From: Flavobacteriia bacterium
GTDB lineage: Bacteria > Bacteroidota > Bacteroidia > Flavobacteriales > Schleiferiaceae
NCBI GenBank assembly: GCA_013373425.1
Contig: JABXHW010000024.1
Location: forward strand, 1 to 56,412
Length of the DNA stretch: 56,412 nucleotides
Reading direction: 5' to 3'
The position numbers and the translations under genes were made by a program. This document shows positions 30,945 to 56,193 of this stretch, piece after piece (the first letter of the stretch is position 1; each line of letters starts with the position of its first letter). Under the pieces are notes generated by a model. That model had not been told where the DNA came from. It did no database searches and saw only the letters and a program-made list of their open reading frames with translations.

Positions 30945-33900
30945 TTATCTCAATAGGGTAATTGTACCTCTATCTTCTTTCAACTTACCTTCTACAGAGC
31001 GGTACTTCACTACGAAGAAATACACTGCTTCTGGAGAGTCTTGACCTCTGAAGGTACCGTCCCATCCTTCTTCAGGATCATCAGACTTAAACACTTCATT
31101 GCCCCATCTATCCACGATGCTCACTGAGTATTCTGAATCCTTCTCGAACAACATTTGAGGTCTCCAAACTCGGTTCTCAGGTACGGCACTGTTTGGATTA
31201 AATGCGTTAGGATAGAATCCTCGAGAATCGTGATCGACACAAGCTTGATTACTGTGCGATTGCATAGGTGCTCCAGTTTCGTCTAAGAAGCCTAGTGGGT
31301 TATTAGATTCCACAGCTACCACCTTGTAGCAGAACACACCATTGCCTTGGGCAAACTGACGAATATTATCCGTGTAATTGGTATCGGTAATGCCAGTTTC
31401 GATTTCATTCCACTGTGCGTTTTCATTTGGACGACGGAACACGGAGTAAGTCGTATTGCCACCGAAGTCGCGATAGCGATTCCAACGAAGCTGGTTAGTC
31501 AAGTTCTCATTTGTACTTACTTCCAAGAGAATGTTAGTACCGTAATTCGAAATGGTGTCCAATCCACCACACTGATTCAGTGTACGTATGCGATAGATGT
31601 ATCTTGATGAATTCGTATTTGCACTAAAGTCGGTGTAGCGAATCTCGAAAGGCGCTGCAGCCGGCATCGGAACGATACCTAATGTCACCCATGGGCCAAG
31701 CTCATCTTCAGCACGCTGAATTTGGAACTCATCCACATCGGCATTTCCATCGATGAACGCCCAGACTTCAACCGATTCGTCGTTTCTCACGGTAGCTCTA
31801 GCGAGGTAAGACAACTGCGAACCCACAACTACACTAGAGTTGATACAATATTCACTTGAAATCGATGTATCATTGAGTGATGTATCGATAGCCATGATGT
31901 AGTAGCAGTAAATCGCTCCAGACTGTAAGTTCTCGTGTACGAAGGTGGTATCGTCACCTAGATTGGTTCCGATGATCACACCTTGATTCATTGGCCCACC
32001 TGGAGGAGTTACATCCGCCATAATGTAGTAGCGGTCTACTTCCCAACCTTGGTAATTGTTCCATTCTAGACGCATACGCGCTTCACACGGATTCAAATCA
32101 CCTTCCAAATACATGGTGGTATGGGCAGGAACAATGAGGTCACTACTCTGATTCATGCATGAATCCAAACTCACAACCTTGTACGTCTCAGGTGTCGTAC
32201 CCGCAATAGAAGACGGTATCGTATACGGCGTAGGAGTTCCTACTGCAATTGTGTCGACGGTCTGCCACCCAATACCAGGGAGACGCTGAAGTAGCAAGTA
32301 ATTCAACACGTCGCCGTGTGGAGTTGAAGGGAAATCAATTACCGCCTGACCGTTATCAACGGTTGCATAGAACAGCGGCAATGAGTCGTTGTTGATTTGA
32401 TCTGCAAAGTAGCCTGATGCTTCTGTAGAGTTACATGAGCTATCGATACGAATCTGGTAGTCCAAGAAGTCACCACAGAGATCTACATAATCTTGATAGA
32501 ATGTATCTGTAGTCGTTGCAATCATCTGATTTTGTCTCCATACCTGATACGTTCCATTGAAACCATGCACACGTGGTGAGTTCCAACTCAAGTCGGCTCT
32601 ATACGGACTTGTTGCAGGGAACGGACTAATATTCAAATTGATTACGGAAAGCGTATCTGATGGGAAAGAGAACTGGCTACATCCTCCGAAAGTTCTAACG
32701 AAGTAGTAGTTATTACCTGCAAGCGGACTCATATCCGTGTAATTGTTGGTGCTGTAATCAAACACTGTATCCAATTCGGTGAATGGCACTCCGTTACCGC
32801 CACGATAAATCACATAGTAGTCGAAATTCTGCGCGGTATCTCCAGGTACAGGAATTCCCCAATCGAAAGTCACAGAACTATCTGGATTCACGGATATGCA
32901 CGCATTAGCCATACTTGGTGCCACAGGTTGAGGCGAGACTACGTTAATTCGTGCTGTGATGAGTTTAAAGGATGGCGCAGGACAGTAATTATCTTCCATT
33001 TTGAAGTAAAAGAGATACTGACTTCGAGCTGCACCACAGGCATTCGGATTATAACTCAAGTGATTACATTCTGTTTTCCAACTGAACTCTACGTTGTTCG
33101 TCAATGCCGTTGTGAAGCCAGTTTGAGGTGCAATAGGTCGAATAGTAGCACAAGGCGGATTGAACAAGCAGTTCGAAGGGTTATTCAAAGGCTGACCTAG
33201 GTTACCACCGACACCCACAAACTTAATTTGCTGTGGCGAGAAGCCCGGGGTAAAGTCGTTATCCGCAGACTGCATTCTAAAGTATATGGAGTCACCAGCG
33301 CGGACGGTCATTTCGTAGTAAAGTGTATCCCCGCTTTGAACCACCGGCAATAGCTGTGGCGCTGGAAGTGGGTCGTTAATAACGTCAAGTGAAGGTGGAT
33401 CATTCGTTCCACCGCCTCCAACTCCACCTGTACAGGCGAGAAGGATAATTGGGATATCACGATAGATTTCGGCAACCTTTTGTCCACATTTAAAAGCAGA
33501 CACCCGCATACATGTGGCGTACTTACCGGTTAACTGAGTATTGATGGTTACCTGTCCAGCATCTTGTGAGAAAGATTCGATACCAGGAACAGGGTTGTTG
33601 AAGGTGTATCCACCCGTAAAGGTAACTGCACTAGTAAGACTATTATCCAGAGGTTGGGCCCAATCGAAATAGAGAGAATCGAGCTCATTGTCGAAGGCGA
33701 AGTTGTTAAAAGCAAAAGGATAGCCTGCACACGTAGTGACCTTTGGGGCTTCCAGAAACTCTGGTGAGTTATCATAACATGGGTTAGCATTCAAGTTACC
33801 GGTACCGGGGTTATAGGGGAACATAAAGGCTCGAAGGAAATAACAACCTCCATTGATATTCGCCATTCCGCCCGGCCGTGCACAAGAGGTCCATGTAAAG

Positions 33901-34271
33901 TTCCAACCTGCTGCTGGTGGCACACCATTTAAAGTTACAGGGTTACTCTTGAAAAGGTGTTCCTCCACAGCCCCCGTTGTTGGGTTATTACAATTGATAT
34001 CTAAGGAACCCGTACAGTTTGGCCCACTAGGCGAAACGTCTTTTGGGTAACCAGACACGAGAGTTACAGGAATACTCCCAGCCGGACTGTTGGAGTTAAT
34101 TGAACCCGCTGCACCGAGTGGAATACCCGTACAGTCGCGGTAGAGGCGTAGATAAAAGACATACTGTCCGTTCGGTTGACAGTCCCACCAGATTTCCCCA
34201 CCTAGCAAGTGGGAGGCGGAAAGTCCAAGTGATGAGAGGAGGATCACTAAAGTTGTTAATAGCCTTTTCAT
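30945..34271 (-). CDS. Large secreted surface protein with T9SS type B (gliding-motility-associated) C-terminal domain, paralog 1
   Basis: A 1108-residue secreted protein: signal peptide (MKRLLTTLVILLSSLGLSAS), N-terminal SHLLGGEIWWDC region common in Bacteroidota surface proteins, fibronectin-III/Ig-like beta modules across the middle, and a C-terminal CHU_C/type B sorting domain (~1020-1108: YPNAFNPNS, SVSIVDRWGNEVF, WDGTFRG, YFFVVKY). Type B substrates leave through the T9SS and are kept at the cell surface. Function is probably adhesion or matrix; no enzyme motif seen. It is a tandem paralog of the next gene upstream. The ATG at 34271 was chosen over a TTG at 34325. Confidence 0.88.
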   Translation of the reverse strand: MKRLLTTLVILLSSLGLSASHLLGGEIWWDCQPNGQYVFYLRLYRDCTGIPLGAAGSINSNSPAGSIPVTLVSGYPKDVSPSGPNCTGSLDINCNNPTTGAVEEHLFKSNPVTLNGVPPAAGWNFTWTSCARPGGMANINGGCYFLRAFMFPYNPGTGNLNANPCYDNSPEFLEAPKVTTCAGYPFAFNNFAFDNELDSLYFDWAQPLDNSLTSAVTFTGGYTFNNPVPGIESFSQDAGQVTINTQLTGKYATCMRVSAFKCGQKVAEIYRDIPIILLACTGGVGGGGTNDPPSLDVINDPLPAPQLLPVVQSGDTLYYEMTVRAGDSIYFRMQSADNDFTPGFSPQQIKFVGVGGNLGQPLNNPSNCLFNPPCATIRPIAPQTGFTTALTNNVEFSWKTECNHLSYNPNACGAARSQYLFYFKMEDNYCPAPSFKLITARINVVSPQPVAPSMANACISVNPDSSVTFDWGIPVPGDTAQNFDYYVIYRGGNGVPFTELDTVFDYSTNNYTDMSPLAGNNYYFVRTFGGCSQFSFPSDTLSVINLNISPFPATSPYRADLSWNSPRVHGFNGTYQVWRQNQMIATTTDTFYQDYVDLCGDFLDYQIRIDSSCNSTEASGYFADQINNDSLPLFYATVDNGQAVIDFPSTPHGDVLNYLLLQRLPGIGWQTVDTIAVGTPTPYTIPSSIAGTTPETYKVVSLDSCMNQSSDLIVPAHTTMYLEGDLNPCEARMRLEWNNYQGWEVDRYYIMADVTPPGGPMNQGVIIGTNLGDDTTFVHENLQSGAIYCYYIMAIDTSLNDTSISSEYCINSSVVVGSQLSYLARATVRNDESVEVWAFIDGNADVDEFQIQRAEDELGPWVTLGIVPMPAAAPFEIRYTDFSANTNSSRYIYRIRTLNQCGGLDTISNYGTNILLEVSTNENLTNQLRWNRYRDFGGNTTYSVFRRPNENAQWNEIETGITDTNYTDNIRQFAQGNGVFCYKVVAVESNNPLGFLDETGAPMQSHSNQACVDHDSRGFYPNAFNPNSAVPENRVWRPQMLFEKDSEYSVSIVDRWGNEVFKSDDPEEGWDGTFRGQDSPEAVYFFVVKYRSVEGKLKEDRGTITLLR

Positions 34272-34501
34272 GATGTGTTGTAATAAATTCTGACTCGAAT
34301 GTATTGTATACAATTCTGTGTGCAAAGCGATTTGGAGAGCAGCCAGTATAAGCGCAAAAATGAGAGCTATCGTAGGCTCACCACACTTGTTGGTTTACTT
34401 ACTCGGAGTTCAATTCGCAGAATATTTTACTCAACGAAATTCTCCGTTCCCTGTATTTCAATTGAACATGCCTCTTCAAATGCTCTTCTAAATTAGCTGA
34501 A
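34272..34501. other. Intergenic region upstream of paralog 1, with a 12-bp palindrome
   Basis: No gene seen. The perfect palindrome ATTGTATACAAT (34303-34314) lies about 31 bp upstream of the paralog 1 ATG and could be an operator. No TAnnTTTG box was found. Confidence 0.35.
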
Positions 34502-46953: not shown

Positions 46954-47703
46954 ATGAACAGTAATTTTTATACTTTCGAAAATCATAACACCAACACACC
47001 TCTTAGCTACTTGAGCGCGTTAAGTAACATTTCGAAACACAATGATCACTGGGGAGCCGTAATGGGCTACGACTGGATGGTGGAAACCCCTAGCTTGATT
47101 TTTACGGAGATTGATGACAGCGAATCTATTGGCGTCATTGAAGACATCGAGTGTCTTACCAAAGCTCAGAATGGTGCTGAGATCAGAGCATTTTTGTTCA
47201 AGAACAAGCTCATTACCGCTTTCCCTGTTCTGAATTCATCTCACTATACAAACGTAAAGTGCTCGGCCATCTCGGATTGGAATAGTTTTCCCATTGAGCG
47301 CACCGTTCAAGTCACTCTTCCCAATCAATCTATACTCTCTGCTTTCTGTGTAGATTCATGGAACAATAAGTCCACGTATCAGCCTAATGCAGATGTTAAA
47401 CTGGGCTTCTCCGCTTTCCCGTACAGAATGAGTCAGAGTTCCGACGAATTCTCATTGAAGCCTATGGATGAATACGATGATGAGGGAACGAGTTATGAAT
47501 TCTCAGGAGGTCAATTGAGCGATATCGAACCAGCGGAAACCTTCTACCATTTAGGTTGGTTTGCTAATCTAAACTTCCCAGAGGAATCCGATCTTCCTCC
47601 TATTCGAGTTTGGATTCACAAGAAAAACATCGAGGGCACTCCAAATTCTGAAGCTCGTTACAGCGGAACGTTCTGGCTTCAGTGTTCCCTAGAAGCGTTG
47701 TAA
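46954..47703 (+). CDS. Conserved-looking protein of unknown function
   Basis: I do not recognise this 249-residue protein. It has no signal peptide, membrane helix or cofactor motif. It is acidic, rich in Asp, Ser, Asn and aromatic residues, and looks beta-rich in its first half (WMVETPSLIFTEIDD, AEIRAFLFKNKLITAFPV). The ATG at 46954 begins MNSNFYTFENHN. Its 3' end overlaps the convergent REC gene by 25 bp, so transcription of either could interfere with the other. The reading frame is long and has a plausible start, but it is less certain than its neighbours. Confidence 0.65.
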   Translation: MNSNFYTFENHNTNTPLSYLSALSNISKHNDHWGAVMGYDWMVETPSLIFTEIDDSESIGVIEDIECLTKAQNGAEIRAFLFKNKLITAFPVLNSSHYTNVKCSAISDWNSFPIERTVQVTLPNQSILSAFCVDSWNNKSTYQPNADVKLGFSAFPYRMSQSSDEFSLKPMDEYDDEGTSYEFSGGQLSDIEPAETFYHLGWFANLNFPEESDLPPIRVWIHKKNIEGTPNSEARYSGTFWLQCSLEAL

Positions 47704-48116
47704 GATTCCAACGTCCACTTAAAAATATTGGAAAGGACTTCTTGATTGAGCGGCTTGCTCACAAACTTCTTGATGAGCATCCTGTCCTCGACCTTACTCA
47801 TGTCACCCCCATCAATACTGGAACTGAGCATGAAGATGGCAAAGCGATTCCGAACGCTCTCAGGCAGTTCTCCAAAAGCATCTACGAAACTGAAGCCGTT
47901 CATTTCAGGCATATGAATGTCTAATAGCAAGGCGCAATGATCCTTGCCAACCAATACAGTATCTGCCTTCAACGCTTCCAGAGCATCCGTTGCAGAAATG
48001 AAGTACTCCATATCACGGTTCGGATAGAAGAGCTCCATGTTCTTGCTTACAATCGTGCGATCGATGAAACTGTCATCGATGAGCACTAAACCGATATTTG
48101 GCTCTTGATCGCTCAT
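47679..48116 (-). CDS. Stand-alone response regulator receiver (REC) protein
   Basis: A 145-residue single REC domain: acidic pocket LIDDSF near 12-17, phospho-acceptor Asp 66 in LLLDIHMPEMNGF, Ser in MLSSS, and Lys in FVSKPLN near 120. There is no output domain, so it works like CheY/Spo0F as a phosphorelay carrier or by protein binding. It overlaps the upstream REC-kinase gene by 4 bp (ATGA) and is the last gene of the five-gene signalling operon. Confidence 0.92.
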   Translation of the reverse strand: MSDQEPNIGLVLIDDSFIDRTIVSKNMELFYPNRDMEYFISATDALEALKADTVLVGKDHCALLLDIHMPEMNGFSFVDAFGELPESVRNRFAIFMLSSSIDGGDMSKVEDRMLIKKFVSKPLNQEVLSNIFKWTLESYNASREH

Positions 48117-49216
48117 CGGTCTACATCTTCGTTAACAGGAAGCTCCACGATCATTGTGGTGCCTTCATTTTTCACGGACTCCACGCTGATTCTACCTTCA
48201 AGTCGCTTTACAGCTTCTTTCACCAAGTAGAGTCCCAGTCCGCTTCCACTGTTGCTCTTGGAATCGCGATAGAACATTTGGAAGACTTTCTGTTGATTTT
48301 CTTCCGCAATACCGACCCCTGAATCCTTCACCTCAATGCGTGCACCGGAATCATCGGTTACCACTTTCACGTCCACGTTGTGAACATTATCGTGTTCCTT
48401 ACGGTACTTTATTGCGTTAGATATCAGATTATTAAGTATGATCCTCACCTTCACTTCATTAGAAGAGAATGGAACTTTGTTATCAACGTTGTAATTCAAC
48501 TCCAAATTCTCCATGGCCGGGTGATAGCGATACTCCCCTGCAATGTCCTTGAGCATTTTATCGAAGTTGATTTCTTCAAGCATGTTGCCAGAGTGTGTCG
48601 ACTTGTAGTAGTCGATAATGTTATGAATGAACTCATCGAGCTTATCCACCATCTCCTTGGTCATCTTGAAGTACTCCAGCGCTTTCTCGTCCTTGACCTC
48701 TTGATTAGCGAGGTAAATGACTCCTTGAATACTCACCAATGGCGCTCTCAAATCGTGAGAAACACTGTACACGAAACGATCCAACTCGTCGTACGCCTTC
48801 TGAAGAGATTCGTTCTTCTCTTTCAGCTCACGTCGGGCATCATAGATATCCTTTGCATTATTGATAGCAACTCGAAGCGTGTCCTCATTCCATGGTTTAG
48901 AAATGAACTTGTAGATCTGCCCTTTGTTGATCGCATTGATAACCGCTTCAATGTCGGCGTATCCCGTTAGGAGAATTCTTATGCAGTCTGGATATTCATC
49001 AACAATGCTCTCGAAAAACTCCACACCAGTCATTTCTGGCATACGTTGATCAGCCACAACGATCTCGATAGGCTCGCTCGCCATGACTTCAATTCCCTCT
49101 TTAGCTGAGATTGCAGTGAATACCTTATACTCCCTTCTAAAATTAGCCTTGAAGGAATTCAAGTTATTCTGCTCATCGTCCACATAAAGAACTCTTGGTT
49201 TGCTTCTACTTCCCAT
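48113..49216 (-). CDS. REC-histidine kinase (soluble hybrid)
   Basis: A 367-residue cytoplasmic protein: REC domain (1-125; VLYVDDEQNNL, Asp 56 in ADQRMPEMTG, Lys 107), coiled coil (~128-145), HisKA with His 154 in SVSHDLRAPL, and HATPase (~255-362; NNLISNAIKY, VKDSGVGI, GSGLGLYLVKEAV). With REC at the N-terminus, its kinase activity is likely controlled by phosphorylation of its own receiver. It lies between the membrane kinase and the lone REC, 9 bp after the former. Its receiver closely resembles the divergent REC protein at 53306. Confidence 0.93.
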   Translation of the reverse strand: MGSRSKPRVLYVDDEQNNLNSFKANFRREYKVFTAISAKEGIEVMASEPIEIVVADQRMPEMTGVEFFESIVDEYPDCIRILLTGYADIEAVINAINKGQIYKFISKPWNEDTLRVAINNAKDIYDARRELKEKNESLQKAYDELDRFVYSVSHDLRAPLVSIQGVIYLANQEVKDEKALEYFKMTKEMVDKLDEFIHNIIDYYKSTHSGNMLEEINFDKMLKDIAGEYRYHPAMENLELNYNVDNKVPFSSNEVKVRIILNNLISNAIKYRKEHDNVHNVDVKVVTDDSGARIEVKDSGVGIAEENQQKVFQMFYRDSKSNSGSGLGLYLVKEAVKRLEGRISVESVKNEGTTMIVELPVNEDVDR

Positions 49217-49225
49217 AGTTCCCCA

Positions 49226-51337
49226 CTATTGATGATGCACTGGTAGAGTAATGATGAAGGATGTTCCCTTTCCTACTTCAGATTCTACCTCAATGGTGCC
49301 ATTATGATTCTTAACAATATTATACACAATTGAAAGACCGAGTCCGGTTCCCTCACCTACCGCCTTGGTAGTGAAGAATGGCTCAAAAATCTTCTTCTTA
49401 ACCTCCTCTGGGATTCCTGGGCCATTGTCCGAGATAATCACACGCACATGCGACTCTCCGACAGGCTCTGTCTTCAATATTATTTTACCGCGTGTAGTCC
49501 GCGACTCGTCGTCTTTAATCGCTTGAGCTGCATTGTTCAAGATGTTCATAAACACTTGATTCAGCTTACCCGCATAGCACTCCACTTTCGGGAGCTTACC
49601 ATAATCCTTCTCGAGGTCCATCAAATCCTTGATGCTGTTGTTGAGGAGAATTAATGTGCTGTCCAGTCCCTCGTGTAAGTTCACAAACTTGATGTCTTGC
49701 TCATCTACTCGGGAGAAGACCTTCAGGCCTTTAATGATTTCAACCGTTCGATCTGTTCCATCCTGCATCCCTTGGAGGAGGTCGTCCACCTCTTCTATGA
49801 TGTAATCAAACTCAATTTCCTCTTTGAATTCATCGAGCTCCTTGACCGTCTGGATGTTCTCGCTTTCACGCAGCTTCTCTTCAAGCCATTCTAACAGCTC
49901 TTTGATATCGTCTAGGTCGCGACGCAAAGGACCGATGTTCGCGGAAATAAAGTTGACTGGGTTGTTGATTTCGTGGGCAATACCTGCGGTCAACTGACCC
50001 AGTGAAGCCATCTTTTCCGCGTCCACAAGTTGACTTTGAGCCTCTTTCAAGTTCTCAAGAGTATCCTGCAATTTTTGTGTTCGCTCCTGGACCATTTGCT
50101 CCAAGATTTCGTTTTGCTCACGAACAATTCTTTCGTTCTCCTTCGAAACACGAAGTGCTTCTTCTTGCGAAGCTTCTTTCTCTTTCTTGAGTGTGTTGAT
50201 GCGGTCTGCCAAGGCGATAGAAAGCAAAATTGCTTCAACACCACTTCCTAACTCAATTATGCTCTTCGTCCAGAAAGTGTACTCTACCACCCCAAAGTTT
50301 CGAAGCGCGAATATGAAAATCCCTGCCAAGAACGCAGTCCACGCTATCAAGAAGAACTTTGCAGGACGATAACCTTTTCGAGCAATCACACTAACGAAGA
50401 TCAGTGCATAAATACTGACGGTCAACGCACCCGCGTCTGTCAATGTGAAGCTCAATGCAACCTCACCAATGAGGTAAGTAACGATCGCAAGCGCGTAGAT
50501 GATTTGGAAAATAATCAGCCCTTTGTGAAGCTTTGGTGTGAACTCCTTGGTCCTCACGAAGACCTTGGCAAATTCAATAGCCGCAAAACCTGTCAGAGCG
50601 CTAAAGAAGACGGGAGTAGCATTGTACGCTGCCGGACTTCCTGGAAGCACAAATTGGAAAATGAGACCTTCCAAACTCGCTTGAGTCAGGCCGATAAAGA
50701 GGATGTAAAGGATATACCACAAATAGCTAGAATCTCTGGTCGTGATATAAACGAAGAGATTGTAGAAGAACATGACGAAGATGACGCCCAAGTAAATACC
50801 GAGGAATATGGACTTCTTGCCGTTATCGATGGATATAGATTCAACATCTCCAATCCGCAATGGAAGAAAGAGTTGATCTTTACTTTTCACTCGGATGTAA
50901 AAGACCGTACTATCGCCATGAGTCAACTCAAACGGAAATAGAAATGTAGGGTGATTAACAGGGCGATGATCGTAGTGATATCGGTCTCCGGTAAGATAAA
51001 CGGGCTCATTTGAGCTACCAATGAATACCTCAATGCTATCGATCATGGGATGTTCTAGCTGTAGGTAGAATCGGTCGGTTTGAGATTCATTATAAACAGG
51101 CACTTTTATCCAGTATGCTGCATCATCCCTGTTGAAATTCAGAACCCTGTTCTCACTGAAAACATACATAGCATTACGCGCATCGATAATGCTGCCTGCA
51201 CTTGTAGAGTCTCTCCAGTAGGATGCAGAATTTCCAACGTACCCTAGCTCTGCATCTCCAGAAATCACCCAGGGGCCGTTTGCAAGGACTGTAGAAGAGA
51301 GCAGCCCGAAAAGTAGTATGGCTAAATACCGCTTCAT
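49226..51337 (-). CDS. 7TMR-DISM membrane sensor histidine kinase
   Basis: A 703-residue receptor kinase: signal peptide ([19 protein letters not shown]), extracellular 7TMR-DISM jelly-roll domain (~25-175; [18 protein letters not shown]), seven membrane helices (~180-375), a long coiled coil (~380-435), then HisKA with His ~455 in [14 protein letters not shown] and HATPase ([42 protein letters not shown]). The extracellular module is thought to bind small ligands. The ATG at 51337 was chosen over a TTG at 51382. It begins 1 bp after the GNAT-like gene, so coupling is tight. Confidence 0.93.
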
Positions 51338-51338
51338 C

Positions 51339-52106
51339 TTAAGGCTTGGACGTTTCCAGGTTGAATGGATTCTTGAACTCACCTGGCTTGATTCCCTCGA
51401 GCTTTAAATCGTACTCCACCTCTACCTCAATCCTTCTTCCTGGAGAAACTTCAGTGGTTACTTGCTTAAGGTTCTTTCTGAGCTTGTAGATTTTCTTTTG
51501 TTCGGATGGTCGCGCATGCGCTAGAGTGGAGGTATCTTCCAAAAGGACCGCCGTTGCTAGAAGATCTAGTTTTGGATAGTAGAATGTTCCTTGATTACCA
51601 AGTTCTGTAATCACCTTACATCCTACTCTTTCCGCCCAACGCACGGTGTAAGGTGCACATAGGGCAAAAAGTGATTTAATTCCAAGTTGTTCTGTAATCA
51701 CAGCTCCTGCTCGGGTTGCAAAAAAGCTTCCCACACCAAGCCCGGCGACTTCTAAGCTATTCCAAAGACCACATAACTCACCTGTGCCTTCCATGGACAG
51801 TTCTTTCACCAACTCATGAATACCAGGATCCATGAAGCCTGTAGCCTCTTCGATTGGAAGTTGTTGGGTTCCGCCTGCAGCATGCACGCGGGCACCTCCA
51901 TACACTTTCTCTCCATCGAGGGACTCAACTATAATCACAAAAACAGCAGGGTTTTGAGCCCAGGAATTGTTGGCAGAGGTAACTTTCTTAACCCCGTGAA
52001 CTTCCAATACTTTCCTGTGACCGTCGATGAACTTTTGTGAGCTCACCGGGTCATCTACTGCCCGAAAGGCACGTAATCTAACTTCTGGTTGATTTAAATC
52101 ATCCAT
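51339..52106 (-). CDS. GNAT-fold acyltransferase-like protein, possibly N-acyltransferase
   Basis: A 255-residue cytoplasmic protein without a familiar name. The middle looks like a GNAT or autoinducer-synthase-type fold: VYGGARVHAAGGTQQLP (~69-84), GELCGLWNS (~109-117), motif A-like VAGLGVGS (~120-127) followed by a helix, then LFALCAPYTVRWAERVGCKV (motif B-like, ~146-165). An Arg/Lys-rich C-terminus follows. Substrate unknown; the acyl donor could be acyl-CoA or acyl-ACP. The start is ATG 52106, overlapping the ThiF stop by 8 bp; a TTG at 52118 also exists. It is flanked by an E1-like enzyme and a sensor kinase. Confidence 0.6.
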   Translation of the reverse strand: MDDLNQPEVRLRAFRAVDDPVSSQKFIDGHRKVLEVHGVKKVTSANNSWAQNPAVFVIIVESLDGEKVYGGARVHAAGGTQQLPIEEATGFMDPGIHELVKELSMEGTGELCGLWNSLEVAGLGVGSFFATRAGAVITEQLGIKSLFALCAPYTVRWAERVGCKVITELGNQGTFYYPKLDLLATAVLLEDTSTLAHARPSEQKKIYKLRKNLKQVTTEVSPGRRIEVEVEYDLKLEGIKPGEFKNPFNLETSKP

Positions 52107-53184
52107 CAATTCCTCCAATCAACGCTTCCAGGTCGACGTAAAATCTACCCGAATGTACTGGTCCGTCCAAGAGTATTCGTCTTGCTGTATCGGCCATCAA
52201 TGCTCCACCTAAGTTCACAGCGGATGCCAATTGTGGCCATGTGTTTATTGTTTTTCCAATTTCAGCGAATGAGGTTTTTGCTCGCTCACTTGTCTTTTCG
52301 TAATCGACGAGCGCAAATAACAAATTCCTTCTGTCTTCTGCCGTAAATTCAGCAGGATTCTTTCCTTCCCAAGGCGCCAGTCTCCCGTGAAAAATCGCTC
52401 GATCGGATTCCTTGTCAAACCGCTCTACATCGACCATTCCGCGATCACTTGTATCCATGATCACCGGTAATTTCATCTTTTGTGCGAATTTTCTGAGCAT
52501 CACTTTTACGGGCAAAGAGTCACATTCCTCGACTAATATGTCCAATCCGCTTAAGAATTCCGAGGCGTTCTTGTCATGGATGCCTTCGTGGTATAGCTCT
52601 ATTTTAATGTAGGGGTCAATTTGTGCAATCTCCCTTGCTGCTAGCACCGTCTTTGGCAAACCAAGTTGATGTACACCTGCACGAAGTCTATTGAGATTAC
52701 TCAAGTCTAGCGTGTCAAAATCTGCAAGTCGCAGTACACCTCCAATCGACTCCATAGCCAAAGTTACCGCGGCTGATTGACCTACACTGAGACCAACTAT
52801 GCCTACTACTTTAGACTGAAGAGTCTCTTGTTCCTGATGTGTAATCTTATGCTTATTCCGAGAAGTTCGTACTTGCTTGAAGAGGGGTTCCTCTAGGATT
52901 CGAACGACGGTATCTAACCATGGGTAATAAACCCAGTTCCCTAGGCCTATTCTTTTTGAATCAATGGACTCGTGCGCCGCTTCGGTTAGTTCCTCTGGGG
53001 TGAAGGCCTTGATAGGGTTTTCAATCCTTATCCATTCTTTTACTTGAGCCAAATATTCGTCAACGATTTGTGTTGGCGATTCTGAAGACAATTCTTCTGG
53101 CAAGGTCTCAGCTTCGGTCACAGGGTAAATGAGAGGAGTGCTAATGAAGCGACTCTCCTCGGCGGTGATTTCACCAGCAGACAT
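52099..53184 (-). CDS. ThiF/E1-like adenylating enzyme, Rv1355c-like
   Basis: A 361-residue E1-superfamily protein that likely adenylates a carboxylate. It has an N-terminal family-specific part (~1-122, with LGNWVYYPWLDTVV and RTSRNKHKIT), then the ThiF fold: VGIVGLSVGQS (131-137 glycine-rich loop), ADFDTLDLSNLNR (Asp 155/157, Arg 166), PKTVLAAREIAQIDP and EECDSLPVKVMLRKFA. I see no CxxC zinc motif and no obvious catalytic Cys. Sequence features match the Rv1355c (MoeY-like) family, whose members often also carry a nitroreductase half; that half is missing. First gene of the five-gene operon. Confidence 0.8.
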   Translation of the reverse strand: MSAGEITAEESRFISTPLIYPVTEAETLPEELSSESPTQIVDEYLAQVKEWIRIENPIKAFTPEELTEAAHESIDSKRIGLGNWVYYPWLDTVVRILEEPLFKQVRTSRNKHKITHQEQETLQSKVVGIVGLSVGQSAAVTLAMESIGGVLRLADFDTLDLSNLNRLRAGVHQLGLPKTVLAAREIAQIDPYIKIELYHEGIHDKNASEFLSGLDILVEECDSLPVKVMLRKFAQKMKLPVIMDTSDRGMVDVERFDKESDRAIFHGRLAPWEGKNPAEFTAEDRRNLLFALVDYEKTSERAKTSFAEIGKTINTWPQLASAVNLGGALMADTARRILLDGPVHSGRFYVDLEALIGGIDG

Positions 53185-53305
53185 AGAGAAATGTTAGAAT
53201 TAATAGTCAAATCTGTTTGCGGCATCCCACAATTTCCACAAACATTGCAGTCGAATTTACAAGAATTTGATTTGTTTAAATAATTTTATGCCAGGAGCAA
53301 ACCTT

Positions 53306-53779
53306 ATGAGTGAAACTAAAGAGCATAAAATTTCAGTCTTATATGTTGACGACGAAGAGAATAACCTACGTTCCTTCAAAGCAACATTTAGAAGATTGTA
53401 CCAAGTGCACACCGCAATTTCAGGCGAAGAAGGCCTAAAGTTGTTGGAGACGACACCCGTGGAGATAATTATTACCGACCAACGAATGCCTGAAATGACG
53501 GGCATTGAGTTCTTGACTCACGTACTCGATCGTGATAAGGAACCGATGAGAATGCTGCTAACAGGGTATTCAGACATCAATGCGGTAATTGATTCCATCA
53601 ACAAAGGTGAAGTATACCGTTACCTCACCAAGCCGTGGAACGAAGACGAATTGCGTTCAGCGATTGAGTCGGCTTTTGAGGTGTACTCCTTGAGAAAGGA
53701 GAACAAAGAGCTTCTTAAAAAGCTTGAAATCGCCAATGATCAACTGGAGTTTCTCCTACGTCAGAGACTCCTTTCCTGA
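53306..53779 (+). CDS. REC-domain response regulator
   Basis: A 157-residue receiver protein: VLYVDDEENNL, Asp 58 in TDQRMPEMTG, and Lys in YLTKPWNED, followed by a C-terminal helical/coiled-coil tail (~130-157). The sequence is strikingly like the receiver of the REC-kinase at 48113 (shared VDDE-NNL-SFKA-FRR, DQRMPEMTG and KPWNED), so it could be a competing phosphate acceptor. ATG 53306 follows AGGAG; an alternative ATG at 53288 adds six residues. It diverges from the ThiF gene and overlaps the Rrf2 gene by 1 nt (TGATG). Confidence 0.9.
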   Translation: MSETKEHKISVLYVDDEENNLRSFKATFRRLYQVHTAISGEEGLKLLETTPVEIIITDQRMPEMTGIEFLTHVLDRDKEPMRMLLTGYSDINAVIDSINKGEVYRYLTKPWNEDELRSAIESAFEVYSLRKENKELLKKLEIANDQLEFLLRQRLLS

Positions 53780-54249
53780 TGCTTTCTAAAAAGTCTAAAT
53801 ACGCTATAAATGCCCTCGTTTATCTTGCCAAGCAAGAGGATAATCGGATGGTAGTGGTTCAAGAAATTGCCGAAGAAGAGCACATTCCCCGCAAATTCTT
53901 GGAAGCAATTCTCCTCGATCTGAAGCGTAACGGGATTCTCGGTTCGAAGAAGGGAAAAGGTGGCGGCTACTACATGTTGCAACGACCGGATGAAATCAAT
54001 CTTGCCGATGTGATGCGCCTGTTCGATGGACCAATCGCCCTCCTACCCTGTGCCACTTATAAGTTCTTCGAGAAATGCGATGAATGTAAGGATGAGCAGA
54101 TTTGCGGCATTCGTGATGCTATGGTAGAGCTTCGCAATCAAACGGTAAACTTTCTCAAGGCAACATCGCTTCAGGACCTCTTGAATCGCGAGAATGAACT
54201 CATAGACGGAGCGCGACAAACGCGCCAGCCAAAGCGCTCACAGTCATAA
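53779..54249 (+). CDS. Rrf2-family transcriptional regulator with a Cys cluster
   Basis: A 156-residue winged-helix regulator: MLSKKSKYAINALVYLA start, VVVQEIAEEEHIPRKFLEAIL (recognition region), GSKKGKGGGYYM wing, and a Cys set at 91, 100, 103 and 109 (LPCATYKFFEKCDECKD). Rrf2 proteins such as IscR and NsrR bind an Fe-S cluster through this region; CymR-like members control cysteine genes instead. Four Cys favour metal or cluster binding. It is cotranscribed with the REC gene, and a cystathionine beta-synthase/cysteine synthase gene follows two genes later. Confidence 0.92.
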   Translation: MLSKKSKYAINALVYLAKQEDNRMVVVQEIAEEEHIPRKFLEAILLDLKRNGILGSKKGKGGGYYMLQRPDEINLADVMRLFDGPIALLPCATYKFFEKCDECKDEQICGIRDAMVELRNQTVNFLKATSLQDLLNRENELIDGARQTRQPKRSQS

Positions 54250-54351
54250 TTATCCAGGCTGCAGCAAATAGTCATACAATTGATGTCGAACCGCTGGGTT
54301 CGGCTCTCAAAGATTGTAAATTGCACTTCTAAACTATCAACGACGTAAGTA

Positions 54352-54801
54352 ATGAAGCGCTTCACCCGATTGGCCCTAGCCATTTCTGCCTTTCTCGCCC
54401 TTGCCTCTTGCAATTCTGCACCATCGATTTCGTCTCCAGAGCATGTGGAGTGGGCAGTGGAAAGCATGGCAGAGTACAATGTTGAATTTACAAAAGAGAC
54501 TACGCCTACATTGAAGCTCTTCATGGCGAAAGCTACTGGAAAAACGGGCTGCAATAACTTCAATGGCTCATTCTCAATGCAGGGTGAAGGCATCAAATTT
54601 CCAACTCCAACTTTTGCAGTCACCAAGAAAATGTGTCCACCAGAAGTCATGGAAATTGAAGAACACTACCTGGGCTTGCTCGGCCGTGTTCAATCATGGA
54701 AAATTGCAGATAACAACAAACTTTTATTGCTCGACGAGCTTGGAAATGAACTTCTAACTCTGAGTTTCGTTCGAGAATTGGAAAGCACTGAAACTTTATA
54801 A
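54352..54801 (+). CDS. META-domain (HslJ-like) lipoprotein
   Basis: A 149-residue lipoprotein: signal peptide with lipobox LASC (Cys 20), then a META domain (~40-140) with the family core GKTGCNNFNGSF near 62-73 and TFAVTKKMC. HslJ-like proteins have been linked to stress tolerance, without a clear activity. The region 54250-54351 upstream contains a small hairpin (CGAACC/GGTTCG) but no perfect -7 box. Confidence 0.88.
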   Translation: MKRFTRLALAISAFLALASCNSAPSISSPEHVEWAVESMAEYNVEFTKETTPTLKLFMAKATGKTGCNNFNGSFSMQGEGIKFPTPTFAVTKKMCPPEVMEIEEHYLGLLGRVQSWKIADNNKLLLLDELGNELLTLSFVRELESTETL

Positions 54802-54819
54802 ATAGAGACAACTTCATAG

Positions 54820-56193
54820 ATGTCAGATACAAAGAAGATTTACGACAATATCCTTGAAACCATCGGTAACACGCCGATGATCAAGTTGAACGAAATAGCC
54901 AAAGACATTCCAGGACAAGTTCTCGCAAAGGTGGAATACTTCAACCCAGGGCATTCTGTAAAAGATAGAATGGCTTTGAAAATGATTGAAGATGCTGAAG
55001 CAAGAGGTGACCTAAAGCCAGGTGGAACTATCATCGAATGTACTTCTGGAAACACAGGTATGGGACTTGCTCTCGCCGCTATTGTGAAAGGATACAAGCT
55101 TATCTGTACCTTGAGCGATAAGCAGAGTAAGGAGAAAATGGACATCCTCCGTGCTATGGGTGCGGAGCTATATGTTTGTCCAACGAATGTGGCACCAGAA
55201 CACCCAGAAAGCTACTATTCGGTAGCAAACAGACTCGCAGCCGAGATTCCTAACAGCTTCTACCCCTATCAGTACGACAACCTTTCTAACCGCGCCGCGC
55301 ACTACGAATCAACAGGTCCTGAAATTTGGGACCAAACCGATGGCAAGATTACGCACTTTGTAGTTGGAGTCGGAACAGGCGGAACGATTTCGGGCGTAGC
55401 TAAATACTTGAAAGAAAAGAATCCAGACGTTCAGATTTGGGGTGTGGACAGCTATGGATCGGTATTCAAGAAATACCATGAAACGGGTGAGTTCGACACC
55501 AGCGAAATCTACTCTTACATCACTGAAGGCATTGGTGAAGACATCCTTCCTAAGAATGTGGATTTCAGCTTGATAGACAAGTTTGAGAAAGTAACAGATA
55601 GGGATGGTGCTCTTGTCACTCGTGAACTCGCTCGAAAAGAAGGTCTACTCTTGGGTTGGTCTGCCGGCTCTGCTTTCCAAGCGATTCGTCAGCTCAAGCA
55701 TGAGCTCAATGAGGACAGTGTGGTTGTAGTTCTTTTCCATGATCACGGATCTCGCTATGTAGGGAAATTGTTCAATGATGATTGGATGGAAGAGCGCGGG
55801 TTCCTCAACCACAAGAACAAGATGGCAAAAGACTTGGTCGACAAGCACCGCCACCTTCCACTATTGATAGCCAATCCTAACGAGCCTATCGACAATGTCA
55901 TTCAACGAATGAGAAAGCACGAAGTGTCTCAGCTTCCAGTTTTCGATGGAAATACGCAAGTTGGAGCGTTAGACGATAGTAAGCTATTGCAAGCCATTCT
56001 CGAAGATCCAAACGTTGCTAGTAAAGCCGTTAAGGAAATTATGGATGCTCCATTCCCAGAGGTTAGTCCAACGGTAGAACTACGCGATTTGGCGAAAAAG
56101 CTTGATAAGAATACAGGCGCCGTTCTCGTCAAGTTTGGTGAGGATGAATTCCACATTCTCTCACGTCACGATTTAGTTTCTGCCCTGAGTTAA
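54820..56193 (+). CDS. PLP-dependent cystathionine beta-synthase/cysteine synthase with C-terminal CBS pair
   Basis: Fold-type II PLP enzyme making cystathionine from serine and homocysteine, or cysteine from acetylserine. The 457 residues show the PLP lysine Lys 48 in HSVKDRMA, CTSGNTGMGLALA at 74-86, phosphate loop GVGTGGTISGVAKYL near 185, then two CBS domains (~340-457) as in eukaryotic-type CBS. Those domains often sense SAM or adenine nucleotides. There is no N-terminal heme domain. Which substrate is used cannot be settled from sequence. The next gene starts on its stop (TAATG). Confidence 0.93.
   Translation: MSDTKKIYDNILETIGNTPMIKLNEIAKDIPGQVLAKVEYFNPGHSVKDRMALKMIEDAEARGDLKPGGTIIECTSGNTGMGLALAAIVKGYKLICTLSDKQSKEKMDILRAMGAELYVCPTNVAPEHPESYYSVANRLAAEIPNSFYPYQYDNLSNRAAHYESTGPEIWDQTDGKITHFVVGVGTGGTISGVAKYLKEKNPDVQIWGVDSYGSVFKKYHETGEFDTSEIYSYITEGIGEDILPKNVDFSLIDKFEKVTDRDGALVTRELARKEGLLLGWSAGSAFQAIRQLKHELNEDSVVVVLFHDHGSRYVGKLFNDDWMEERGFLNHKNKMAKDLVDKHRHLPLLIANPNEPIDNVIQRMRKHEVSQLPVFDGNTQVGALDDSKLLQAILEDPNVASKAVKEIMDAPFPEVSPTVELRDLAKKLDKNTGAVLVKFGEDEFHILSRHDLVSALS

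Follow-up and report, generated by a model that had tools for sequence, protein, structure and literature searches.

The acyl-oxazolone systems OxzAB (Pseudoalteromonas rubra) and TyzACB and TrzAS (Mycobacterium, Rhodococcus) place an acyltransferase next to a ThiF-type cyclase, and OxzB and TyzB/TyzC are relatives of the TrzS-type cyclase according to two reports (PMC12856293, PMC10404671). The TrzS report calls the role of acyl-oxazolones in bacteria a major unresolved question for the field, and its authors name a possible signalling role for trzAS, which is adjoined by cyclic di-GMP (c-di-GMP) genes (PMC12856293). Two further systems serve for comparison: the phc operon of Ralstonia, with the methyltransferase PhcB, the kinase PhcS, the receiver (REC)-kinase PhcR without DNA-binding domain and the lone receiver PhcQ (PMC8578825, PMC6989110), and comQXPA, in which the signal-making gene and the N-terminal membrane half of ComP are highly variable, the cytoplasmic half is conserved and the variants form functional pherotypes (PMC4008528), the comQ clusters being 65-70% identical (PMC4408185). 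Here we analysed 56,412 nucleotides of a Flavobacteriia bacterium (Schleiferiaceae; assembly GCA_013373425.1, contig JABXHW010000024.1, positions 1 to 56,412), hereafter the window, which carries a six-gene module encoding an E1/ThiF-type enzyme (E1), a GNAT-like acyltransferase, a 7TMR-DISM sensor histidine kinase (HK1), a REC-kinase (HK2) and two lone receivers (REC1, REC2). We consider it probable that these genes form a signalling system complete in itself, serving cell-cell communication (or self-sensing) through an N-acyl amino acid/oxazolone signal and a Phc-like relay. The individual parts are of known kinds; put together they seem to make up a signalling system not described before, and the evidence that synthase and receptor are a matched pair is strong, though indirect. 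No paper describing it was found among the matches listed by one open-access library, and one may exist.

Like the oxazolone systems, the module sets a candidate acyltransferase beside a ThiF-type cyclase of the same clade, and a fused flavin oxidase such as theirs also occurs in many of its Bacteroidota relatives (33 of the 77 loci that we mapped). Unlike OxzAB, TyzACB and TrzAS, the module in the window has a very divergent acyltransferase, a dedicated 7TMR-DISM kinase with a relay, and no flavin oxidase that could be found there or in its genome, and two relatives have, in place of the cyclase, a member of the isoprenylcysteine carboxyl methyltransferase (ICMT) family. The likeness to phcBSRQ is one of architecture: a signal enzyme, a sensor kinase, a REC-kinase and a lone REC are clustered in both, and the Phc methyl ester signal resembles the predicted product of the ICMT variant. 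The two differ in that the PhcB products are hydroxy fatty acid methyl esters and that no LysR-type regulator was present among the window proteins tested (Pfam). As in ComQXPA, the synthase and the sensor half are polymorphic together in 22 Cyclobacteriaceae while the kinase half is conserved with the species. The two differ in that ComQXPA belongs to Firmicutes and uses peptide pheromones; in the Bacteroidota module the predicted product is a small acyl-amino-acid compound, and the receptor would be a 7TMR-DISM kinase. The agr types are a further pherotype parallel. LuxI-type N-acyl homoserine lactone (AHL) synthases and FeeM share the acyltransferase fold with the GNAT-like protein, and ring closure of an acylated amino acid would be a further likeness; unlike in LuxI systems, the ring in the module would come from a separate ATP-dependent cyclase, the proposed receptor is a membrane kinase, and no LuxR-type receptor was present among the nine window proteins around the synthase that were tested (Pfam).

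Gene organization of the module

The module reads as follows, with gene starts picked from the open reading frame (ORF) translations:

52099..53184, minus strand: E1, ThiF/E1-type cyclase of 361 aa, assigned to the oxazolone-pathway clade; corresponds to the N-terminal half of Rv1355c/TrzS-type proteins and lacks their flavin oxidase half
51339..52106, minus strand: GNAT-fold candidate N-acyl amino acid synthase; ATG at 52106, ORF opens at TTG 52118
49226..51337, minus strand: HK1, 7TMR-DISM sensor histidine kinase, proposed receptor; ATG at 51337, ORF opens at GTG 51382
48113..49216, minus strand: HK2, receiver plus histidine kinase without DNA-binding domain, PhcR-like in architecture; Pfam REC, HisKA, HATPase
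47679..48116, minus strand: REC1, lone receiver 3' of HK2; Pfam REC 7e-06, below cut-off
53306..53779, plus strand: REC2, divergent lone receiver, core member; probable ATG at 53306, ORF opens at TTG 53267

The five minus-strand genes are tightly packed, E1 and GNAT overlapping by 8 bp, GNAT and HK1 lying 1 bp apart, HK1 and HK2 9 bp apart, and HK2 and REC1 overlapping by 4 bp, which confirms the order and spacing given in a first-pass annotation of this DNA for a five-gene operon with a divergent REC. Its domain calls were also borne out, the GNAT fold by structure prediction and the others (ThiF, 7TMR-DISM with kinase, REC with kinase, lone receivers) by Pfam and NCBIfam: the Pfam matches include ThiF (1.2e-21), 7TMR-DISM_7TM (5.5e-49), DISMED2 (1.3e-24), HATPase and REC, the REC score of REC1 being 26.6 bits against a cut-off of 30.2. 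The genome of the window comprises 3.09 Mb in 76 contigs (completeness 96%), and of the named relatives found, Phaeocystidibacter luteus (L023; E1 identity 68%) is the closest.

Conservation of the module across Bacteroidota

The annotation had presented these genes as a candidate new module and had staked the idea on conservation of the neighbourhood in relatives; the neighbourhood is conserved, and the refutation failed. A scan of genome contigs yielded 44 loci, and E1 was present in 21 of 246 genomes of the window's order (own genome included). In an even sample of the phylum (395 genomes, own genome included in all counts), GNAT was found in 13 genomes and E1 in 10, all of which lie within those 13, and an eleventh E1 was cut by a contig end. 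HK1 adjoined GNAT or lay one enzyme gene off in 13/13 cases (12 fetched loci and the window), with a REC-kinase-like gene next. REC2 was recognisable in 10/13; of the other three loci, one stops at a contig end, one apparently lacks the gene and one has a degenerate copy in which the REC2 tail is preserved.

Among the 77 mapped loci, GNAT was present in 71, E1 in 75, HK1 in 70, an HK2-like gene in 62 and REC2 in 69, and 24 had a match to REC1; these counts include contig-cut loci and near-duplicates, and the gene map shows the HK1 call in L069 to be a false positive. The recurrent order is divergent REC2, E1 (alone or oxidase-fused), GNAT, HK1, HK2 and often REC1, and in Sphingobacteriales it is GNAT-E1-HK1-HK2-REC1, with REC2 at the far end in most loci. 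The taxa include Phaeocystidibacter, Algoriphagus, Cyclobacterium, Mongoliibacter, Pedobacter, Mucilaginibacter and Chitinophagales. GNAT-E1-REC2 occurs without an adjacent HK1 in three genomes (G082, G223 and, for one of its two copies, G178); each of them encodes an HK1 (41-46% identity) at another place, and where the contig extends past it, in two of the three, HK2 comes next. Since the arrangement recurs over several Bacteroidota orders, it is beyond chance, and the operon is real and old. No output gene was conserved across the loci when the neighbours were read by eye.

The cyclase, the acyltransferase and the predicted product

What had been annotated as an E1-like adenylating enzyme is indeed a ThiF protein, and the call can be sharpened to a specific known type, the oxazolone cyclase. 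E1 matched the NCBIfam Rv1355c family at 1.5e-125 over model positions 28-341 of 722, scoring 420 bits against a cut-off of 476 bits that was set for the 722-residue fusion, and is 44% identical over 270 residues to the N-terminal half of a Rhodococcus Rv1355c-family protein. The ATP-site residues N163, N165, R166, K178 and D222 are invariant in 72/72 aligned relatives (near-duplicates included). D222 sits in an EECDS motif that the Rhodococcus protein has too, and judging from this motif it probably corresponds to D217 of M. smegmatis TrzS, an Asp that TrzS needs. Homology places E1 with the ThiF-type cyclases of the OxzB/TyzB/TrzS clade; the flavin oxidase half is absent. Therefore, the chemistry of the module can be named.

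A flavin oxidase was not found in the 96% complete genome of the window (best E 0.157; three short nitroreductases). In TrzS, cyclisation comes first, and the saturated cyclised intermediate forms under oxygen limitation or in oxidase mutants (PMC12856293), so that a lone cyclase is chemically plausible. Mapped on a tree of 75 cyclases, the oxidase trait requires 4 changes, and 2 of them are forced by well-supported branches. In two loci (L106 and L107; 2/13 GNAT genomes) the cyclase is replaced by a 213-residue ICMT-family protein (1.5e-19 and 3.5e-18, above cut-off). Both enzymes could act on the carboxylate, the one by ring closure and the other by methylation, and a constant GNAT and receptor with a changing cap would be expected of a signal family.

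The GNAT-like protein had no Pfam or NCBIfam match, no Pfam family was shared by more than two of 24 members, its profile found at best an unrelated protein among PDB sequences (E 0.084), and no GNAT-like gene was found in plasmids at E 1e-3. Its AlphaFold2 model (pLDDT 89.9) has a GNAT fold, as the annotation had expected, and the first Foldseek rows were MesI, FeeM, BjaI and TofI. MesI, FeeM and BjaI are AHL or N-acyl amino acid synthases, and TofI we take to be of the same group. FeeM ranked first by VIA-align (Z 15.7, root mean square deviation 2.6 over 178 residues). From fold and context we infer that the protein is probably an N-acyl amino acid synthase.

Several loci outside Bacteroidota were also observed. 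In two Patescibacteria contigs (L063 1649-5731, L064 6236-13470) a TrzS-type ThiF, a flavin-oxidase-like gene and a histidine kinase lie close together, and given these the link between oxazolone enzymes and kinases may reach beyond Bacteroidota. On a Rhodococcus plasmid (L150 3629-7953) a GGDEF gene lies near an Rv1355c-family gene, as reported for mycobacterial trzAS, and c-di-GMP may be the relay partner there. A Streptomyces plasmid (L149 8131-11045) encodes a 622-residue ThiF protein of TrzS type followed by a beta-ketoacyl-ACP synthase III gene, not an acyltransferase.

Covariation of the GNAT-like enzyme with the HK1 sensor half

Were the product the ligand of HK1, one would expect the sensor half of the kinase to track the enzymes in evolution and the kinase half to track the relay. 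In the 52 loci that have every part, the distance correlation was 0.72 for GNAT-7TM and 0.40 for GNAT-kinase (partial values given HK2, 0.66 and 0.02), and the HK1 kinase correlated with HK2 at r 0.95.

The pattern is strongest in Cyclobacteriaceae, 22 of which carry the module at one syntenic site, with an inorganic pyrophosphatase and others on one side and, on the opposite flank, what we take from size and order to be a PorX-type regulator and an alanine-dehydrogenase-sized protein. Of 29 loci, the test covered the 22 in which every part and the flanks are present; L112 was excluded beforehand, its E1 being equal to that of L045. The correlations of GNAT were 0.93 with 7TM, 0.89 with the ectodomain and 0.72 with E1, versus 0.36 with the kinase half, 0.32 with HK2 and 0.26-0.36 with the flanks, and the kinase half correlated with HK2 at 0.86 and with the flanks at 0.53-0.87. 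In partial Mantel tests given the flanks, GNAT gave 0.92 with 7TM (p 2e-4, the floor for 5000 shuffles), 0.14 with the kinase (p 0.04) and 0.04 with HK2; these p-values are rough, as the rows are related. Sliding windows placed the switch of covariation inside HK1 at residues ~360-420.

GNAT and 7TM split into the same three groups in these 22 loci, the GNAT groups having been defined from distances before trees were built. A background tree of the kinase, HK2 and five flanking proteins rejects the three groups as clades (approximately unbiased test, p 1e-71, 2e-40 and 9e-80), and 7 changes between groups are needed on it. Within groups, GNAT-7TM was 0.97, 0.92 and 0.91 versus 0.25, 0.79 and 0.13 for GNAT-PorX. 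Oxidase absence coincides with one receptor group in 22/22 loci, with 4 changes of each trait on the background tree.

The exchange can be read directly in Algoriphagus formosus (L037) and A. marincola (L038), which share ~97% DNA identity over 12 kb to the left, fall to 46-61% from the E1-FDO stop codon through GNAT and HK1 to about codon 360, and return to 94-99% in the kinase half and 89-97% in HK2 (79-91% from ~18 kb on). As judged from these identities, the two loci differ by a swap of GNAT and the HK1 sensor half. A second swap block, in L040/L066, also covers most of E1-FDO. In the 25 loci outside Cyclobacteriaceae (L049 and L042 excluded by name, plus all listed Cyclobacteriaceae), GNAT-7TM was 0.40 and GNAT-kinase 0.08 given HK2.

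The sensor kinase and its proposed relay partners

HK1 carries a DISMED2 ectodomain, a 7TM domain and a kinase, the full set of a 7TMR-DISM sensor kinase (Pfam), and its ectodomain (model pLDDT 88.7) has the fold of the periplasmic DISMED2 domain of RetS. The 13 module HK1s were 13 of the best 15 rows in both the sensor-region and the kinase searches. None of the 19 non-module 7TMR-DISM ORFs compared (39 non-module places are listed) has an HK1 kinase, and their output parts differ; they scored at most 51 bits for the HK1 kinase versus at least 262 for full-length module HK1s, cut module copies scoring lower.

A kinase domain private to the module was considered and ruled out, the HK1 kinase subfamily being widespread with other sensors. 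Non-module kinases of this subfamily adjoin REC2-like or REC-kinase proteins in all five loci looked at, and lie near HD phosphohydrolases on one Vibrio plasmid and one Burkholderia plasmid.

In its own genome the nearest paralogue of REC2 is the HK2 receiver (54% identity; next 37%). As closest paralogues, both are likely partners of HK1, as far as sequence can tell. REC2 ends in a C-terminal tail with the consensus N(D/E)QLEFLLRQxLLS, seen by eye in 69 listed copies with small changes. Longer REC-kinases (440-512 residues) replace HK2 in L108 (3244-4653), L048 (13844-15166) and L054 (14009-15547), and their extra middle part is PAS-like by eye.

Proposed mechanism and rival explanations

We propose that the GNAT-like enzyme, judging from its fold, links a fatty acyl group to an amino acid, and that E1, given its close homology to characterised cyclases, would adenylate the carboxylate and close the oxazolone. 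In many relatives the fused flavin oxidase would then desaturate the ring compound; with no oxidase in the window, a saturated acyl-oxazolone, or something derived from it, would be expected as the product there. A product of the GNAT line would be the ligand of HK1, as covariation and swaps suggest, and phosphate would move from HK1 to the receivers of HK2 and REC2, which are related, and probably from HK2 to REC1, an order suggested by architecture and resembling the PhcS-PhcR-PhcQ relay of Ralstonia. In Cyclobacteriaceae, GNAT and the sensor half would form a polymorphic specificity cassette, by analogy with the Bacillus ComQXP pherotypes. Beyond this, we lean towards regarding the module as an undescribed polymorphic ('pherotype') quorum-sensing class in Bacteroidota, whose N-acyl amino acid signal, its carboxylate capped as an oxazolone (saturated or desaturated) or methyl ester, would be made by GNAT together with an interchangeable tailoring enzyme. 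The signal would be detected by a 7TMR-DISM kinase, and species would exchange the sensing half of this kinase along with GNAT.

The first-pass annotation had suggested that the product of the two enzymes is sensed by the 7TMR-DISM ectodomain. Sensing by the kinase finds indirect support in the co-occurrence, in the exchange of cyclase for ICMT under a constant synthase-receptor pair, and in the covariation and swaps of GNAT with the sensor half and not the kinase half of HK1. The ectodomain is not singled out as the sensor: 7TM covaries with GNAT as strongly as the ectodomain does.

A number of observations weigh against a signalling system of this kind. Other GNATs nearly equal FeeM (Z 14.8 downward versus 15.7), and hhalign links the GNAT-like protein weakly (probability 41%) to a TrzA-like protein encoded beside the Rhodococcus gene. 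E1 has no preference for the sensor half in the 52 loci (0.61 with 7TM versus 0.68 with the kinase half). Outside Cyclobacteriaceae the pattern is weaker, GNAT-REC2 also reaching 0.40 in the 25 loci; in Cyclobacteriaceae GNAT-REC2 is 0.21 given the flanks (p 0.002). Oxidase state offers 3 well-supported independent pairs only (sign test 0.25), and the window's own genus is without a visible swap, GNAT being 84-87% and the kinase 78-84% identical. Related 7TMR-DISM proteins occur in 39/395 genomes at 1e-30 and the HK1 kinase subfamily in 125/395 at 1e-40 (at most 6 candidates scored per genome), module genomes included in both counts, and both also occur without the module; HK2 is missing beside HK1 in some loci (for example L035, L044, L050, L060 and L072). 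GNAT and the sensor half are also neighbours, and linkage can be enough for them to be inherited together, recombination breaking off within the conserved genes that flank them.

In the rival with most in its favour, the enzymes produce a secondary metabolite or an acyl-oxazolone lipid, and the role of the two-component genes is confined to controlling that production on an unrelated external cue, such as a sugar bound by DISMED2. This would suit the RetS-like ectodomain fold, which counts against product sensing and has carbohydrate-binding modules among its next, weak rows, and it would suit an oxazolone role that is described as unresolved (PMC12856293); outside Cyclobacteriaceae, the covariation of E1 with the kinase half also equals or exceeds that with the sensor half (partial 0.50 versus 0.33 given HK2 in the 25 loci). 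A sensor of an unrelated cue should not switch type with GNAT, however, and in Cyclobacteriaceae the sensor half tracks GNAT and the kinase half tracks the flanks; nor does an exporter or further enzyme lie at a constant place across orders (maps read by eye; most neighbours unannotated). We therefore regard metabolite control as unlikely, although worth keeping in view. An antagonistic product with HK1 as a self-detection or immunity sensor, hypervariable through an arms race, seems improbable to us: discrete swapped types at one locus would fit it, and Stieleria N-acyl tyrosine derivatives are reported as antimicrobial (PMC12856293), but the same maps show no immunity or efflux gene at a constant place across orders. 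That E1 serves a ubiquitin-like protein-modification system can be rejected with near certainty. The PADLOC E1-E2 models do match the ThiF fold (best 9.2e-11), but no E2, JAB or ubiquitin-like partner was present among the nine window proteins tested (Pfam), and E1 is of the Rv1355c/TrzS type, a small-molecule cyclase.

To our knowledge, a signalling role of the module, if true, would provide the first receptor proposed for oxazolone lipids, and we know of few dedicated quorum-sensing systems in Bacteroidota, to which it would add a signal class and a receptor class. A receptor kinase that changes type with a biosynthetic enzyme would, if true, answer the question of the oxazolone role for Bacteroidota. 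The question would then be directly testable, as two nearly identical Algoriphagus species differ at the operon mainly by GNAT and the sensor half.

Rrf2, the shared intergenic region and neighbouring genes

Two further features border REC2:

53779..54249, plus strand: Rrf2 regulator; Pfam Rrf2 2.7e-36
53185..53305, no strand assigned: intergenic region shared by REC2 and E1; holds a block conserved in three same-genus loci

The divergent REC-Rrf2 pair of the annotation was upheld in part: REC2 is core to the module (69/77 loci), and Rrf2, which overlaps REC2 by 1 bp on the plus strand, is rejected as a module part, adjoining REC2 in the gene maps only in the window's genus (L023, L067). REC2 is followed by Rrf2, a META-domain protein and a CBS/cysteine-synthase-type gene (53779-56193), an order seen only in these same two loci. 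Rrf2 also matches CymR, a cysteine regulator, below cut-off, and because of this match it may belong with the cysteine-synthase-type gene.

A block of ~46 bp in the intergenic region (window ~53258-53303) is nearly identical across the three same-genus loci and is a possible operator or promoter. A promoter scan gave 6 sites versus 10.4 expected. At the other end, a 249-residue protein without family match (46954-47703, plus strand) is convergent with the operon, overlaps the end of REC1 by 25 bp, and in the gene maps occurs only in the same-genus loci L023 and L067. Elsewhere in the window, a large protein (30945-34325) carries a type IX secretion C-terminal signal (CHU_C).

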